A DNA stretch of 64,000 nt from Polychytrium aggregatum. Lineage: Eukaryota; Chytridiomycota; Chytridiomycetes; Polychytriales. The notes beneath the pieces are model-generated. The model saw only the letters and a program-made list of their open reading frames with translations, did no database searches and was not told the origin of the DNA. Made by a program: the position numbers and the translations under genes. The stretch covers positions 361,001-425,000 of the forward strand of contig NW_026516238.1 in NCBI RefSeq assembly GCF_025602895.1. Reading direction: 5' to 3'. Each line of letters begins with the position of its first letter. The stretch's first letter is position 1. Positions 12,610 through 33,546 of this stretch are shown here, in pieces.

Positions 12610-12673
12610 GCAGCGTCGATTGGATGACAATTGGATGTCCACATCTACACTTTATTCAGAAAAAAACGGGACA
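12610..12673. repeat. Candidate left terminal inverted repeat
   Basis: Contains GCAGCGTCGATT (12610-12621) and AAAAAACGGGACA (12661-12673), both repeated in inverse orientation at 16223-16262. On the minus strand this side also carries a polyadenylation-like AATAAA just past the Fanzor 3' end. Confidence 0.5.
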
Positions 12674-12745
12674 ACATAGCCGTTTCCATGAACATGTAGT
12701 ATGTGCTGTGCTTGCGTCAAGCAAAGCCACAAGAAATAAAACAGA

Positions 12746-15118
12746 TCACTTTGGCAGCCTCCGAGTGAAGACCGCCGGTCGCTCTCCGATCTCCACAATC
12801 GACTTGCATACTGTGATCATGTTGCGCGCCGCATTGACGTCGCGATTCCACACTGTCCGGCAGCTGGGATTCTTGCAGCTCCTGACAAAGTGGGAATTCG
12901 CAACACTGGGCGCATCGAGTCCTTCCAACCGAACTGGCTCCAGGCACTTGGAGCACACTTGCGAGGTGTTGAACTCGTTCGTCGAGGCCACCTTGACGCT
13001 TCCGTGAGGGTGAGTGGGACGGCGTCGGTGGTGCTCGAATTGCTCAAAGTACCGAGCGAACCGCTGCCTCCGAGGGCTGGATGCATAGCCCTTGCCCTGT
13101 CGCCATGATGCATTGCCAAAGGCGATCACCACATCGGTCCGTATCGGGGCGTGCTTCAGGACGGCCTTGCACATCTTGTCAACGGCCACTTGGCGCCTCT
13201 TGTGGCCCGTGAAGCGATGGTGACGGGCCTTCTTGCCAAGGTGGAAGTCGAGCTGCACTCGCAGCTCCGGTCGCAGGACATGGGTGAGATGGACCTTGAA
13301 AGCCTCCGAGGACGACACCTTGGGCGAGGGGGTGGTCGACATCCAGGTCTCGATGCTGAGTCGATACTTCATGGTATTGTGCCACTTGGTGTTGGACGTA
13401 TGGCCACACATGTGCTGGTAGTGGCCATTGGAGAATGAGACCACCTCGTCTTGGTGGCCCGGTGCTTGGATGACCGCCGTGAAGATGGAGCCGACTCCAG
13501 GATCGATGCCAATCCAAGTGGTGCCACCGGGGTCTGGGTCGCCGATGTGGGCCTGGATGCGCTACTCGGCAGTCGGAGGAGGCTCGGAAGTCTCGGTGTG
13601 ATCGGTTCGAGGCAGAAACTTGACGAGACCGATGGTGCATCCAATGCCATCGGTGCTGATCTCGTAGTTGAACAGCTTCTTGTTCACGTCCCGCTCTTGG
13701 AAGAGGGAACTACGCAGCTTGAAGCAACTGCGCCAGAGACGATCCTGGTTGTTGACACCGTCCTCACCTTCTTCCTTGAGCATGTCCCAGGTGAGGCCAA
13801 GGCGTTTCTTTGGACCAAGGAGCTCCCAGAGAGTGACGGTGTCGATCTTGACATACTTGGCCTTCGCAGTACAGAGAGGAACTATCGTGCACACGGCCGG
13901 AGGAGTGTCCAGAGCGAGCTGCTTGAGTGCCCAGTTGATCCTGGCGGCCAGCTTGTTGATCTTGGCCTTGGTGGTGCCGAGCTCAGACTTGGCCTTGGTG
14001 AACCTCTTGTCGTCGGAGGGAATGCCTTGGGTGGTGAGCTCGTCCAGCTTGGCCTGGCGCTGCAGCTCTGTGACTCGGAGGGCGGGCATGTCACAGTCGA
14101 TCCACTTGTGGACATCGTCGACCATCTTGTCTCGGGCGAGGATTCTCACATGGTGTGAGAGGCGATGGAGGGCCCGGAAGTGGTCCTGGTCGTTGCTGTA
14201 CCGAAACTCGTCCAGGACGTGGCCAAACTCGGGATAGAGGAACTCGAGATCGGCCTTGGGTGGAGTCTGCCCTGGTTTCTCGAAGAGCTCGAGACAGGCC
14301 TCGATGGCTTCGTGCTTATGCTTGTTGGCTGGGAAGACGGCAGCGCAGAAGCGGCGAAGGAGTCGCCAGTAGGCCAGGTCGAGGTGGGTGGTGCAGTTGG
14401 TAGCATAGGCATTGACAGCCAGTGTGAGAAGCTGACTGTGAGCACCATCAGGCAGACGAGGGGCCGGAGGCAGGTCTGCGTGTCGAGTGGTCTGGTAGTC
14501 GCGAAAGGAAGCGACCAGATGCTCGTTGTATTTCTTGGTATCCCTGGCCGTCGAGAGGGCACCGGCCTGGACGATCCTGAAGCATTGGCGGATGAATGCA
14601 GGGGTGGCCTTGGAGATGACGGGGACGGGAATATCCTGCTCGATGCACCGGAGGATATGTAGGTTGAGCAGCCTGGATGCCTCGAACTGGATCTGGGTCA
14701 TGGCCTCGACGGTGGCCTGGATCTTGTCGCGGAGAGCGGGATTGAGACAACAGCCATCCATCGTCTGCTTGAAGCAGCTGAACTGAGGAGCGGATGACCT
14801 TCCATCCACGAGTGGGACGACAGAACTCTTGAGGGGCCGGTATTTGGGACACCTGTTGGTGTTGCTTCGCTGATGATCGGTGCCATCGCACTGGCGACAT
14901 CGCTTGCCAGTACTCGAGGAAGTAGATGGACCAGGCTCGGTGGGATCGACATCCATTGGATCTGCAGAAGCAGTGGTGGTGAGCGACGGAGCAACAGACG
15001 ACCAAGCATGCGTGGGGTCAGAATACGAACCAGAGACAGGCTCCGACTGTGACTTGGCTTTCTTGGGCCTGGGTGGCCGAGGCTGGCCATCACCGGTACC
15101 CTTGCGCTTCGGAGGCAT
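12746..15118 (-). pseudogene. Fanzor (eukaryotic TnpB-like RNA-guided nuclease), one internal stop
   Basis: One reading frame of 790 codons from ATG at 15118 to the stop at 12746, broken only by a TAG at 13564-13562 (codon 519). The N-terminus is basic with a Cys/His cluster (CRQCDGTDH...C) near residues 73-90. After the TAG the catalytic half is intact: RuvC-I GIDPGVGS (Asp539), the AFGNASW segment near residue 668, NEFNTS (Glu715), a zinc finger formed by CSKC (722/725) and C-x4-C (748/753), then RuvC-III NRDVNAARN (Asp760). This order is that of Fanzor/TnpB, the OMEGA nucleases guided by an RNA encoded at the element's end. The absence of an acidic residue in the usual RuvC-II place, with Glu in NEFNTS, fits the rearranged catalytic site described for Fanzors. 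The stop may be a recent nonsense change; no convincing intron removes it. Confidence 0.85.
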
Positions 15119-15202
15119 GGGGACAGAGGATGCTGGATGCCTGCCAGTGGTACTGGTCAGAGCAGAGACTTTTTTTTATCGTACAATAGCGCGATGATCA
15201 GA

Positions 15203-16164
15203 TCAAGGCGAGATGAGGGAAGAAAGCAGCAGGACGAAGGTGTGGCATTTATACCCGAGAGCAGGAGCCCGTCTTTGCGGGCTGGTTGGGAAGTGACCCT
15301 GTTCAAAAATCGCCGAGAGGTTCAAGCCAGGGATTTGAGCGTGAAAATGGCGGCGTGATTGGGGGACTAAACCCCAAATCGGTGGGGACTCAACCCCAAA
15401 GAAGTTCTCGATGGGATTGAAGTCGGGCGAGGCAGGTGGGGTGAAGATCACTGACCATCCTCGGCGCTCGATGCAGTCCAGGACAGCCCTTGTCTTGTGC
15501 ATGCTCACATTGTCCATCACAATCACAGAGTCGTCTGGGAAGGTCGCTCGCTCAAAGAACTCGACCATCGAGTGTGTCTTGAATGATGTGGGGATGTACA
15601 TACGATGCAGCACACCAGAGTGGTTGATGGCAAATGCAGCCGAGACAGACTTGTGTTTCATGTGATTGCGCTGGCGAAGCGGAGCACCCTTCGGCGAGTA
15701 TCCGTAAAGAGGGAAAATGGATCTCCTGATCCCTGTCTCATCGACAAAAACGAATCGTCGTGGGTCGATGGAGCGGGCCTGGTCCCTGAACTGTGCCACT
15801 CGCTCATCCAGTCGCTTGGACTTGTAGAGGTGTGTTGCCCTCTTGTGTGAGAGACCTGCTCGCTGGATGGCAGTGTGGCAGAGTGAGAGTGATACTTTCC
15901 TCTGGAGGATGGACTCGAGCTTGCATCGCAACACAGGACCAGTCTGGAACGGGTCCTGTTCAATCAGGGTGCGAATGACTGGACATGCCTGCTCGAAGAA
16001 AGTGGATCTGCGAGCTGTGACTCGGTTGGCTTGCATCCTCGGTGCCATCGATGGATGGTGCTCTTGGATACACTGAATATGGAGGCGACCTTACGCAGGC
16101 TATGGATGAGGGCGTAGCATCGCAATGCGGCGGTGCGAAAGTCGGATGTGTGGCGAATGGTCAT
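15203..16164 (-). pseudogene. Tc1/mariner-like DDE transposase, frameshifted and truncated
   Basis: The N-terminal helix-turn-helix (FRTAALRCYALIHSLRKVA then FSVSKSTIHRW) reads from ATG at 16164. Near 16050 the frame shifts, and the rest continues in the frame that starts at 16048. The catalytic triad is visible: FVDETG (first Asp) followed by GYSPKG, VIVMDNVSMHK (second Asp) and SPDFNPIENFF (terminal Glu, DDE type). The usual 40-70 residues after that motif are missing. From about 15402 the frame runs into unrelated sequence containing the direct repeat at 15362-15400 and drifts on to a stop at 15203. It lies directly upstream of Fanzor on the same strand. The protein would cut and paste the element but is unlikely to be active here. 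Confidence 0.82.
15362..15400. repeat. Direct repeat at the transposase breakpoint
   Basis: Two 17-base copies, GGGGACTAAACCCCAAA and GGGGACTCAACCCCAAA (16 of 17 identical), separated by TCGGT. They sit exactly where homology to the DDE transposase ends, so they may mark a junction between two joined segments. Confidence 0.75.
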
Positions 16165-16222
16165 GGCCAGCGCGCGATAACATTGGGTAACAAAATATTC
16201 GATGAATGGTCAAAAACACGGG

Positions 16223-16262
16223 TGTCCCGTTTTTTATTGGATCGCCCGTAAATCGACGCTGC
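16223..16262. repeat. Candidate right terminal inverted repeat
   Basis: Contains the inverse of the two left-end motifs: TGTCCCGTTTTTT (16223-16235) and AATCGACGCTGC (16251-16262). A further GTGTCCCGTTT lies at about 16408-16418 inside a hairpin. Confidence 0.5.
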
Positions 16263-16555
16263 ACCGAGTGCACACAGGTGTCTCGGGTCGTGTGCCCCGC
16301 AGATATGGCATTGGCCGAGTCCATCACAACAGCGCGAGCGCCATTCGACATCATTCAGCCAGATCGATCTGCGCCATTCAATCCACACAAGTCATCCGCG
16401 TGTTGAAGTGTCCCGTTTCAACATGGGTACGCAGCTATCCATGGTTGCCGGGCAAAGTGCTCGGCCGATTCCTGCACCACCGCCACTACTTTTCTCCAGG
16501 TTGCCCCTCCCGCCCTTCGTTCCCCTCCTCACAGCAACGGCATCCTCAACAGAAG

Positions 16556-19649: not shown

Positions 19650-20390
19650 GGCCGTCGGTGGTGGTGCAGAGGTGCCGAGGCCAGGAAATGCGCGAGAGAA
19701 GAAGGCTGGGAGGCGAGGCTGTCGGTCAGAGGAGGAACAGGACGGCCGCGGCGATGATCCTTGGTGAGGTCGGGCACAATCAGACGGGCGAGAAAGAGGG
19801 AGTGAGCGAGCGAGAGAACAACGAGGGCGAGCGATTCCCCCTCGCTCGTGAAGGCGCTGGCCCTGCTGGCTTCATTTGATCCCAAGCACACAGAATGGCA
19901 TGGCCCGCCAGAGGCAGCATGATCGGCAGGGACATAGAGTCGAGTGGTGCCGGGGCGCATCTTGCGTGTTTGGTCGCCTGCGATGAGTGGCCGTGCCAGA
20001 AGTAGTTATCAGATGGAATCTCAGATGGATGTCGGGTGGGATGTCGGGTGGGATGTCGGGTGGGATGTCGGGTGGGATGTCGGGTGGGATGTCGGGTGGG
20101 ATGTCGGGTGGGACCTCAGATGGAATATGCAAGAGTCATGCCATGTCCAGCGAGCATGGGTGCTTGCCAATACATTGCCGGCGCCAGGTGACTATCCCGC
20201 CCGGCAAACGAGCCGCAGGCGAGGCCGCCGAGGACGCTCTCGCTCTTGCTCTCTGCGTTTTTTTGCACGGCCAGCGTCAAGATCCAGTCCAGATCAAGCT
20301 TTGGTCCCGCAAGCTGCACCCGAGGCATCTCGCAAGTCCCCACATCCCACCCTACTCGGAGCACCGGACACACTCGGATCCGTCGCAGAC
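19650..20390. other. Intergenic region with repeat
   Basis: Shared upstream sequence of the LMBR1 gene (-) and LYR gene (+), holding the 12-base repeat at 20029-20112. The open frame crossing the repeat is not conserved-looking. Confidence 0.5.
20029..20112. repeat. 12-bp minisatellite
   Basis: Seven near-perfect copies of ATGTCGGGTGGG. Because 12 is a multiple of three, it forms a spurious frame reading DVGWDVGW into the LYR gene downstream. Confidence 0.9.
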
Positions 20391-20993
20391 ATGTCTTCAG
20401 CCCATCTCCGGAGCCAAACGCTGTCGCTGTACAGATCGCTCCTGCGGTCGATCAAGCAGTGGCCTCCACAGAGCCGAGCGCACCGATTAGAAGTGCAAGC
20501 CCCGCAATGGCTACGGGAGGAGTTTACGGCCAACAGCGAGCTCTCCGAGGGCGAGTGGCAGGCCAAGCTGGCAGAAGGACAGAAGGAGCTCGAGTCGCTC
20601 CAAGCACTGGTCGGGGACAAGGTTGAGGCTCAGGTGAGTCGTTGTTGGGAGAGGGTTCGTCAGCACGAACACATCCGCAAGCGGTGCTGGGGAGTTATGG
20701 CCGGACGACAGCACCTGTCGTTGAGGAGCCGGGGCAATGGCCTGCCCAAGGAGGCGTATGGAATGCTGATGCCAACTCTTCCGTGCTGGGCGGGCGCTGC
20801 AAATCGCCCACAGTACCCGTTTTCGGATTCGAGCCGGATCATCGCCTTCATGCCTTCGAAGAAGATGTTCAGTCTGCTGGATACAGAGGCCCAGGAGCAG
20901 CTCAAGCCCGAGAATGTGTCGACATTCAAGTTCCTGGGTGCATACATTGCCACAAAGTACAAGATTGGAATGTCGCCGCCGAACCAGCAATAA
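20391..20993 (+). CDS. LYR-motif (Complex1_LYR) mitochondrial protein
   Basis: Exons 20391-20633 and 20814-20993 join in phase 0 to give 140 residues. The start QTLSLYRSLLRSIKQWP carries the LYR tripeptide, followed by an amphipathic three-helix segment with the usual downstream Phe (EEFTANSELSEGEW). LYR proteins bind mitochondrial acyl carrier protein and help assemble respiratory complexes or deliver Fe-S clusters. The exon-2 tail (KYKIGMSPPNQQ) is not diagnostic, so the particular LYRM subfamily is unknown. The start at 20391 was chosen over the longer frame from 19944 because the latter runs through a minisatellite. Confidence 0.72.
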   Translation: MSSAHLRSQTLSLYRSLLRSIKQWPPQSRAHRLEVQAPQWLREEFTANSELSEGEWQAKLAEGQKELESLQALVGDKVEAQVSRCWERVRQHEHIRKRCWGVMAGRQHLSLRSRGNGLPKEAYGMLMPTLPCWAGAANRPQYPFSDSSRIIAFMPSKKMFSLLDTEAQEQLKPENVSTFKFLGAYIATKYKIGMSPPNQQ

Positions 20994-31036: not shown

Positions 31037-31614
31037 CTGTCTCGAGCCGCTGCTTTTGTTTCGCTTTGCGGCTTTGCGCCTTTGCGGCTTTGCTACCTCT
31101 GGATATATCGGCTCCTGCGTCAGAGTGCGAGGGGAATAGTTGTAGTTGTTTTGCGTGGCCTTCACTTGAATACATCCACTTGCAGCAGTCATCGCGACGT
31201 TCGACTCCCCAGGGAGAAAGACGCACGGCAAAGATCAACATCACTGCAAGACCTTGGCGAGGAGATGACATTGGGTTCTGGTTCACACCATCCACACACA
31301 ACCCACACAAGCCATCTGCGTGTGAAGGTTCCCTGGCTCACCTCAAAGTCAGCTCGCTGTAATCTCCAATCGACCCACTCCCATTGGCCAGCACACCATC
31401 CAATCAGAGAGGCTCATGCCATTCACGTGACACAGCCATCCCAAACGGGTCGGCCAGTTTGAATCCACTGCCCTGCCTCAATCTCTGCCTCAATCTCTGC
31501 CTCGATCTCTGTCTCGATTCCGTTTGTCTCGATTCGATCTGTCTCGGTTCGATCTGTCTCGATCTCGGCCTCGATCCCTTGCCCTTGACCATCCCGCCGA
31601 CGGCAAGCGCTCCC
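31037..31614. other. Intergenic region with simple repeat
   Basis: Contains CTCGATCTGTCTCGATT-type repeats at about 31475-31580, which extend the next gene's frame upstream (LCLDLCLDS) but are probably leader sequence. Confidence 0.5.
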
Positions 31615-33546
31615 ATGGCGCAACCTGAATCGGCAACGGCGTCGCCGCGGTTCACCTTCTCGTCGTTTGTCTCGAACCTCACCTCTGAGAACACCCAAGC
31701 CTCGCCGCCGCCAGCTCCACCGCCAAAGGGCCTGTCTCGCAAGGCGAAAAAGTTCCTCGCCAGGCAAAATGTCGCCTGGGACGCATGGCGCCCCGAGATC
31801 CCCTCAGAGGCCTATGGCGAAAGACATCTGAGCAGGCCCCCTGTTTGGCTTGAATCTGCCCGCGGTGCCGACAGCCCCAGCAAGTCGCTGGTCGACCGCC
31901 TGGATTCTGAGATCCGCTCCCTCGTCGACTGGCTTTCACCCAGCGCGCAAGAGGTTGACCTCCGGAACGCAACCGTCGCAAAGTACCGCAACATCGTCAA
32001 GGCCATCGACCCCTCCTTCGACATCTTTTGTTTCGGCAGCTTTCCCACCAACATGTACCTCCCCAACGCCGACATTGACATCACCATCTTGATCCCCAAC
32101 CGCAGCAACACCCGCAACAAACAGGCCAATGCGCTGGTCCGGGTGAAGCGGCATCTGCAAAACAGACAAGTTGGCGAGGTGACGGCGATTCTGCACGCCC
32201 GGGTGCCGATCCTGAAGGTGCAGGATCGGGAAACCGGCTTGATCCTGGACATTTCCTGCCACCAAGACGAGTCTGCCGCCCAGAGTGTCCACATGGTACA
32301 AGAGGCTGCGGCCAGCTATCCCCAGCTCCGGCCGATCGTCATGTTCCTCAAGCTGTACCTTGGTGTCCGCGACCTGACTTCTGTGCCGACAGGCGGCCTT
32401 GGGGGGTTCGCTCTTGTGTGTTGGGTGCTGACATTTCTGCAGATGCACCCAGCCATCTATTCATCGCAAGTCGCACCTCCGTCACCGCCGAAGGCTGCTG
32501 TGGCTGCTCCGGCTATTCAGGACGGCTCCCGTGAACAGCCTGCATCTGAATCCGCCGAGCAAACCGCTGCCCGCGAACACACCTCCGCCTCCGCTCCTCA
32601 AGAAGGTGCTGCCGATGATCGAGGCCAGGACCACACCAGTGGCCGCGATGTGCCCCGGCTTACCGACAACCTCGGAGAGCTCGTGACGGACTTTTTCCAT
32701 CTCTTTGGCAAGGTGTTTGACTACTTTCGCCTTGGGCTGGTACCCACGGGCCACGTCGACCCCCAGAGCGGCGAGTTGCTGCATATCATCTCCAAAGAAA
32801 CGAGCGATCTCAAAGAAAAGCGCTGCTTCTTCATTCAAAATCCCACAGCCCCCGTCGGCACGAATCTCTGCAAGGGCACGTACAAAATCGACCATATCAC
32901 GGCGTCCTTCTACGACACATACGAGCTGTTGATGGCGATGGATGTCGCCTCCGGCGTCTCCGACGGATGCGACAACGAGCTTGAGTTGCACCTCCGGCGA
33001 GCGCGGTTCGCTCGAATGCCAAAGTCCAAGTCAGTCTTGGCGCATTTTATGCACATGCCCCCGGACATATCATCGAATCGCAAGCGACCCTCTTCCGACC
33101 GGCACCGGCACCGGCATCGCCACAGTCATCACGACGACCGAGAACATGGCCACCGCGCCGACAGACGACGGAGCCACCATACCGACAGAGGTCATGGACA
33201 TGATCATCGCCACGACAGGCGGGACTCGCGGGGCGGCGAACGCCATGACATCAGATCGCAAGCAGACTACGAGAAACGACACCCAGAGTCGCTCGGATCA
33301 AGCTCGCGCAGCGACTCGGGCGCACACAAGCGACGACGTTCCGAGTATCATCACCGTGGTGAGCCTGATAGCGCCGAATCTGGCCATGCCAGCCCGAACC
33401 CACACAAACAGCGGCGCACATGGGCTGAACCATCGCAAGCCCAGTCAGGACAGCGATCATCCGAACGGCCCGCCCGTCATCGTCGCCACACCGAGGGCAC
33501 CTCTCGATCGCCAAGCCGCTCTGAGCGCCGGAGAAGCTACCAGTGA
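31615..33546 (+). CDS. Non-canonical poly(A) polymerase (Trf4/Cid14 type)
   Basis: One exon, 643 residues. The nucleotidyltransferase core contains FGSFPTNMYLPNADIDITI (GS...DxD metal site, residues about 140-160) and a third carboxylate in LILDISCH. The central helical region SYPQLRPIVMFLKLYLG and the PAP-associated segment LGELVTDFFHLFGKVFDYF follow, with a low-complexity Ala/Ser insertion between. The last about 140 residues are His/Arg/Ser-rich (RHRHRHSHHDDREHGH), like an RS-type nuclear tail. Trf4-type enzymes add short oligo(A) tails to aberrant nuclear RNAs in TRAMP complexes. An in-frame ATG at 31384 exists, but the stretch to 31614 is simple repeat, so 31615 was preferred. Confidence 0.9.
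   Translation: MAQPESATASPRFTFSSFVSNLTSENTQASPPPAPPPKGLSRKAKKFLARQNVAWDAWRPEIPSEAYGERHLSRPPVWLESARGADSPSKSLVDRLDSEIRSLVDWLSPSAQEVDLRNATVAKYRNIVKAIDPSFDIFCFGSFPTNMYLPNADIDITILIPNRSNTRNKQANALVRVKRHLQNRQVGEVTAILHARVPILKVQDRETGLILDISCHQDESAAQSVHMVQEAAASYPQLRPIVMFLKLYLGVRDLTSVPTGGLGGFALVCWVLTFLQMHPAIYSSQVAPPSPPKAAVAAPAIQDGSREQPASESAEQTAAREHTSASAPQEGAADDRGQDHTSGRDVPRLTDNLGELVTDFFHLFGKVFDYFRLGLVPTGHVDPQSGELLHIISKETSDLKEKRCFFIQNPTAPVGTNLCKGTYKIDHITASFYDTYELLMAMDVASGVSDGCDNELELHLRRARFARMPKSKSVLAHFMHMPPDISSNRKRPSSDRHRHRHRHSHHDDREHGHRADRRRSHHTDRGHGHDHRHDRRDSRGGERHDIRSQADYEKRHPESLGSSSRSDSGAHKRRRSEYHHRGEPDSAESGHASPNPHKQRRTWAEPSQAQSGQRSSERPARHRRHTEGTSRSPSRSERRRSYQ

Follow-up and report, generated by a model that had tools for sequence, protein, structure and literature searches.

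Results and Discussion

A Fanzor frame with a single in-frame stop codon

The stretch of DNA analysed here (64,000 nucleotides, called the window below) holds a Fanzor frame interrupted by one TAG, and the question is whether this stop marks a broken gene, a gene that is read through, or an error in the sequence, the three options that an earlier note had left for it. The frame itself is as described in that note: on the minus strand, 15118..12746 reads as an ATG-initiated run of 518 codons, TAG, 271 codons and TGA, that is, a frame of 790 codons with a single TAG. The Asp of GIDPG in RuvC-I is residue 20 after the TAG, and the motifs GIDPG, CSKC and NRDVNAARN can all be read in the translation after it. 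With the catalytic Glu also lying downstream of the stop, the frame is indeed broken just before the nuclease core.

13565..15118, minus strand: N-terminal part of the Fanzor, 518 codons (translation; recurrence in the genome)
13562..13564, minus strand: in-frame TAG (translation; copy comparison)
12746..13561, minus strand: C-terminal nuclease part of the Fanzor, 271 codons and TGA (PF07282, E 1.3e-9; ExxxxxxCxxC signature)

The assignment to the Fanzors was supported by the nuclease signature together with a profile search, in which the C-terminal part matched the Pfam family PF07282 (Cas12f1-like TNB) at E 1.3e-9, over the gathering score, and the NCBIfam family guided_TnpB at E 4.5e-6, under the cut-off of that model. 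The features by which Fanzor1 proteins are recognised in the available text of PMC10711439 are present: a RuvC-I with the DPG motif (GIDPG) and a catalytic Glu in the alternative position six residues before the zinc-finger CxxC (EFNTSQVCSKC). The C-terminal zinc-ribbon/TNB domain is present as well, here as PF07282. The search expression given in the same source allows 120-160 residues from DPG to Glu and a second CxxC, and the window protein has 173 residues and a second pair of the form CX4C; since the expression was written for TnpB relatives (PMC10711439, available text), this spacing is no bar to Fanzor1. Compared by sequence with the solved Fanzors, the C-terminal part stayed below significance (SpuFz1, E 0.29; GtFz1, E 0.95), and a structure model from the single sequence was too poor for a fold search (mean pLDDT 40). 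For the N-terminal 518 amino acids, searches of Pfam (E<=1), NCBIfam (E<=0.01) and solved structures (at the limits set) gave no match; this half recurs at 82 further scored places in the same genome with 92-96% identity. No relative was found in the phage records and viral contigs searched.

The TAG is an ordinary lesion in one of many copies

In all 36 other full-length copies compared within the same genome, the position of the TAG is a sense codon, and 26 of the 37 full copies have neither a premature stop nor a frameshift in the Fanzor. The remaining 11 are broken by stops or frameshifts of several kinds, and a nonsense mutation, the first option of the earlier note, is the simplest reading of the TAG. 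The share of open frames is to be read with the sampling in mind, as loci L002-L030 were chosen by similarity to the N-terminal half of the window copy and the sample favours open frames; in a less biased subset of 13 distinct full copies, taken from the leading 20 entries among the 100 places listed for the 3'-end pattern described below, the Fanzor is open in 6.

The 19 nt around the TAG occur at 220 places genome-wide (<=2 mismatches), and among the 100 matches listed the TAG itself is carried by four, which are the window, a place on contig C135 and a pair of places on contig C373. The count is therefore at least four, as places with the TAG and two further mismatches could sit outside those listed. 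Two of the three remaining places were compared with the window over the 99 bases that surround the stop; 10 and 8 positions differed, respectively, and between the two places themselves 2 did. As the TAG stands in differing surroundings, either the mutation recurred or short stretches were exchanged between copies. In the alignment of the 37 copies, it varies from segment to segment of the element which of them is most similar to the window copy, a pattern that fits exchange between copies.

That the gene is really open and the TAG an error of sequencing or assembly is very improbable, because the same TAG was assembled at three other places, two of which were read, and stands at no fewer than 4 of the 220. 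Readthrough in this host, with the window copy giving the full 790-aa protein, might be argued from TAG being found at 6 of the 8 stop positions in the 37 copies and from one TAG being common to three of them, but about 56% TAG is expected from the codon make-up alone, TAA, TGA and frameshifts occur as well, and all 36 other copies keep a sense codon here, so that we consider it hardly credible. A TAG-specific recoding was also considered, the stops in the N-terminal half being mostly TAG, and was rejected at the codon level (6/8 against the expected ~56%). The TAG common to three copies lies at Fanzor codon 400 of L013, L041 and L054, which occupy different sites; elements with a truncated Fanzor therefore kept moving, presumably helped in trans.

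The single TAG is thus a commonplace inactivation of one copy among many, and of little consequence in itself. A nonsense codon has deprived the window copy of its nuclease half, and its transposase is altered (see below); the copy would depend on proteins of other copies. It is the family around the broken copy, and not the stop, that is the finding. The earlier reading as a Fanzor with a stop holds; what it missed is that open copies are common and that the gene sits in a mariner-type transposon with a transposase of its own.

The Fanzor is cargo of a Tc1/mariner-type transposon

Copy comparison placed the Fanzor inside an element of 3.6 kb as its cargo, with a transposase just upstream.

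12648..16248, minus strand: Tc1/mariner (IS630-type) transposon with transposase and Fanzor (ends from copy comparison; inverted repeats)
16249..16250, minus strand: left TA target duplication (copy comparison)
12646..12647, minus strand: right TA target duplication (copy comparison)
16223..16242, minus strand: left inverted-repeat arm as detected (85% complementary; the element goes on to 16248)
12654..12673, minus strand: right inverted-repeat arm as detected (pair of the left arm; the element goes on to 12648)
15203..16048, minus strand: DDE transposase frame, 281 aa (PF13358, E 1.2e-21; NCBIfam IS630, E 8.2e-28)

Inverted repeats of 20 nt (85%) enclose both genes, and the type of DDE transposase, the TA duplication and the inverted repeats are those of the Tc1/mariner/IS630 group; the NCBIfam IS630 score of the transposase is 97.7 bits against a cut-off of 100. 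At 281 aa, the window transposase is shorter than the 310-aa form found in 12 of the 37 full copies and is altered at both ends. Unoccupied sites were sought with the joined flanks of 37 copies out of 39, all except L024 and L025. The first 20 gave no contiguous match among 46 listed (40 scored of 330 candidates). For the remaining 17, the last of them short by 2 nt, the listing was dominated by a repeat around L002; unoccupied paralogs of L002 and L008, each holding the target only once, were among the matches listed, and the absence of other copies from this result means little, because the repeat around L002 filled it.

A large family under constraint

The assembly searched comprises 64.7 Mb in 418 contigs. 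With up to 3 mismatches on both strands, a 33-nt stretch near the 3' end was found at 335 places, the 5' end pattern at 284 and a 36-nt RuvC-I stretch at 247, all with alleles included, and the reversed control gave 0. Some of the counted places are alleles or duplicates, as several fetched copies have both flanks in common. The mean pairwise identity of the 37 full copies is 95.8%.

Among 20 pattern loci fetched, 14 were full-length or nearly so, 5 were short and 1 was something else. In the first short class, seen at 5 of the 20 loci, the first ~100 bp are joined to the last 216 bp (L049 is less complete); in the second, bases 1-665 are joined to the last 449 bp with the same junction at L098, L099 and L100. 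As a separate observation, L006 and L007 have more than 575 bp of right flank in common and different left flanks, which reflects recombination between copies or an assembly join.

For Fanzor changes found in more than one copy, the ratio of replacement to silent changes is about 0.34 of the neutral expectation, and for private changes it is 0.76; in the transposase part the values are 0.30 and 0.45, respectively. For the Fanzor, the mean pairwise ratio is 0.32 among open copies and 0.31 among broken copies; for the transposase part it is 0.21. Shared changes are more constrained than private ones; the Fanzor was therefore under constraint during the spread of the family, and copies decay after insertion. 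Taken as comparisons of sequence, these ratios show purifying selection on both the Fanzor and the transposase. One copy, L058, alone accounts for 97 of 450 private differences, and the private changes in the 37 copies have no clear repeat-induced-mutation context.

A one-sided insertion motif and a predicted guide RNA

Both ends of the element were read in 75 entries, of which 6 duplicates were removed, leaving 69 copies: 56 with typical and 13 with unusual left ends. In all, two sets of six allelic or duplicate copies were dropped before the ends were counted, as were loci without both ends (e.g. L028, L032-L040, L049, L055 and 16 of the 20 in one batch).

16249..16252, minus strand: TTTA, an instance of the left-flank motif (A/T)TTA, which is predicted to be the target-adjacent motif for the Fanzor (T bias)
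12646..12745, minus strand: region after the stop, predicted guide-RNA scaffold (two predicted hairpins)
12626..12645, minus strand: right flank, predicted 20-nt guide of the window copy (position by analogy with SpuFz1)

Among the 56 typical copies, T stands directly before the left TA in 52, and the next base outward is A or T in 46. No matching preference was seen on the right, where A follows the TA in only 12 of 51. Genome-wide, the typical left ends have T before TA in 192 cases and another base in 8 (n=200, alleles included), while in the window as background T precedes TA in 13% of cases. This T belongs to the target, as it is also present where L002 and L008 have unoccupied paralogs. 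A transposase acting alike at both ends is not expected to give a one-sided motif. The one-sided T fits a nuclease that needs a motif beside its guide target, and (A/T)TTA is the motif predicted for this Fanzor. For comparison, SpuFz1 requires CATA, and CA precedes the left repeat of the Spu-1 elements (PMC10432273, available text).

The ~100 nt between the stop and the right end contain two predicted hairpins with weak z scores of -1.8 and -1.9 (+0.46 for a 5'-end stretch). This region is kept in both classes of short copies and sits where SpuFz1 has its guide RNA (comparison with the available text of PMC10432273). Covariation in it amounted to 1 compensatory pair of 27 in 17 sequences and was not used as support, and a search of Rfam gave one chance match only, below the gathering score. 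For the predicted guide of the window copy, no target preceded by TTA was found in the assembly, and a search allowing up to 3 mismatches recovered nothing but the site that the copy itself occupies.

Some left ends carry pieces of the right flank

Eight of the 69 copies repeat at their left end the first 4-11 nt of their own right flank, which is the predicted guide target. The lengths of these scars are 6, 4, 11, 8, 5, 6, 9 and 7 nt, and the other five unusual left ends match their own right flank by 0-2 nt. Summed over all 13, the match amounts to 59 nt; with permuted flanks the mean was 7.5 and the maximum 30 nt, and 59 was reached in none of 20000 permutations. The typical left ends had 33 matching nt where 33.9 were expected. 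In 30 of the end pairs, which were picked by the exact 5' pattern, scars reaching further in would be missed.

An 8-mer was common to both sides in 6 of the 69 pairs belonging to one copy, compared with 34 of 4692 pairs made by exchange (p 2e-5), and among the six copies concerned L131/132 and L139/140 are ambiguous and L013 matches at another place. L131/132 and L139/140 may be further scars or natural repeats, and they are outside the eight. The right ends behave differently: 57 of 69 match the family sequence exactly; the remaining 12 show small variants or, in L127/128, an ill-defined end. The converse scar was sought in 11 of the 12 variant right ends, none of which had more than 2 nt in common with the left flank; 8 left against 0 right scars gives 0.008 in a sign test. 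T precedes the left TA at 5 of the 8 scar sites, compared with 192 of 200 typical left ends (p 0.005).

The scar junctions share 1-6 nt with the element: six copies were scored, and L045 (4 nt) and L050 (6 nt) were judged by eye because their A-tracts differ. By eye, the right flanks of the scar copies L045 and L065/066 resemble a terminus of some other mariner-type element, and exchange between similar ends could be the cause of the scars in these two.

Proposed homing by the Fanzor and its alternatives

With moderate confidence, we regard the family as Tc1/mariner-type transposons whose full-length members carry a DDE transposase and a Fanzor1-like nuclease, with a probable guide scaffold in the last ~100 nt, and for which we propose a mechanism of the following kind. 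The transposase would move the element into TA sites, and an RNA running out of the right end would take up the flank as its guide. The Fanzor, needing (A/T)TTA, would cut the empty site, be it one left by excision or one on the homologous chromosome, and repair from the filled copy would restore the element. With the cut inside the guide target, the left fragment would keep the TA and up to 16-21 target bases, to judge by the cut positions of SpuFz1; if not trimmed, this fragment might anneal by microhomology to the inner left end on the template, leaving a scar on the left and a clean right end.

On such a mechanism, the odd left ends would be footprints of a Fanzor that acts as a homing, drive-like helper, an interpretation to which we give even credence. 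The retained tracts of 4-11 nt are within the SpuFz1 cut distance of 16-21 nt, which supports it. It is weakened by the T being present at only 5 of the 8 scar sites, where a strict motif would demand it at every one, by the two right flanks that resemble other mariner-type ends, and by Sleeping Beauty, in which one-sided aberrant joints arise although no Fanzor is involved. As evidence drawn from the sequence, the scars at the ends of some copies are suggestive, though not proof, of a nuclease that helps the transposon to return to sites that it has left.

The same left ends would be obtained by the main alternative, one-ended transposition, in which the transposase joins the right end to TA and the free left target end is extended along the target and then joined by microhomology to the left end of the element, so that the Fanzor has no part in the scars. 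The junctions sharing 1-6 nt with the element agree with this, as does the enrichment of scars at sites without T (3/8 against 8/200), as if the left end had failed there. According to the available text of PMC7987939, Sleeping Beauty likewise forms joints that are canonical at TA at one end only, the other end being joined where the target resembles the transposon end. However, those joints affect both ends in similar proportions, at about 1.4% (PMC7987939, available text), whereas here they are confined to the left end (8 left, 0 right) and found in 8 of 69 copies. Moreover, all eight scars are duplications of 4-11 nt, no loss of left flank having come to notice in the copies read, and the one-sided T motif of the typical copies is left unexplained. 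We consider one-ended joining rather unlikely as the source of the scars.

A quite improbable alternative is that the Fanzor is a mere passenger of no benefit to the element, with a frame that looks kept because the family is young. That elements with the codon-400 TAG still moved to different sites in three copies, and that gene-less short copies are common (5 of 20 loci), would be in line with this. The far stronger constraint on shared than on private changes (0.34 against 0.76) and the pairwise ratio of 0.32 are not, nor is the retention of the region after the stop in both short classes, and the one-sided T motif would need another cause. The homing interpretation accounts for the last of these through the (A/T)TTA predicted to be needed by the nuclease.

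Comparison with known systems

The closest parallel is Spu-1 of Spizellomyces punctatus with its nuclease SpuFz1, where a Fanzor1 likewise lies between inverted repeats and TA (PMC10432273, PMC3627910, available text). As described in the available text of PMC10432273, the guide RNA of Spu-1 follows the stop and reaches the right end, where a scaffold is predicted here; the conserved bases before the left TA are the motif required by the nuclease; and gene-less 'ghost' copies, comparable to the short copies described above, retain the right end. The differences are that no transposase was found within Spu-1 according to the available parts of PMC10432273 and PMC3627910, while one is present here; that 42 Fanzor loci are given there, against 247 RuvC-I places here; that the motif is CATA there and the predicted (A/T)TTA here; and that the sequence similarity of SpuFz1 to the protein studied here is below significance (E 0.29).

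A mariner-type transposase and a Fanzor1 in one element with TA duplications are described for PUl-1 and PGv-1; in the same available text, PGv-1 and three relatives are single-copy, in contrast to the hundreds of places here, and PGv-1 has a third gene (PMC3627910). CMe-1A of Cyanidioschyzon merolae resembles the present family in its high copy number of about 150 and differs in that its copies are about 80% identical to the consensus and without inverted repeats (PMC3627910, available text), the mean pairwise identity here being 95.8%. Mariner elements with a Fanzor1 and a Fanzor family that numbers about 150 copies have thus been published before (PMC3627910, available text), and Fanzors in 'hundreds of copies' have been stated in general (PMC10711439, available text).

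The logic proposed above is that put forward for TnpB in IS200/IS605, where the guide records the site, the empty site is cut and repair copies the element back (PMC11870625, PMC10432273, available text). Those systems are bacterial and use an HUH transposase, whereas the element described here is a eukaryotic cut-and-paste DDE transposon, for which homing is deduced from scars only. In the mostly freely accessible literature on Fanzors, TnpB and Tc1/mariner joining that was searched, we found no report of end scars of Fanzor homing.

The paper showing that a Fanzor cuts DNA calls its biological role unknown (PMC10432273, available text). With hundreds of near-identical copies, a transposase within the element, a one-sided motif and scars, this role becomes a matter of countable sequence evidence. 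Other Fanzor hosts can be examined for evidence of the same kind, with mariner elements that have no Fanzor as the comparison. If homing is true, the one-sided (A/T)TTA of nearly all typical copies would show which insertions could spread by it.

Neighbouring sequences

Positions 16404-16430 of the window and the right flanks of L045, L054, L065/066 and L101/102 resemble other mariner-type ends (ACGGGACA core or similar), as if the elements insert beside one another's ends. Elsewhere in the window, on the plus strand, two ordinary eukaryotic genes were recognised: a frame of the poly(A) polymerase/TUTase family at 31384-33543 (PF22600, E 6.4e-20) and one of an LYR-family protein at 19944-20990 (PF05347, E 3.2e-8).
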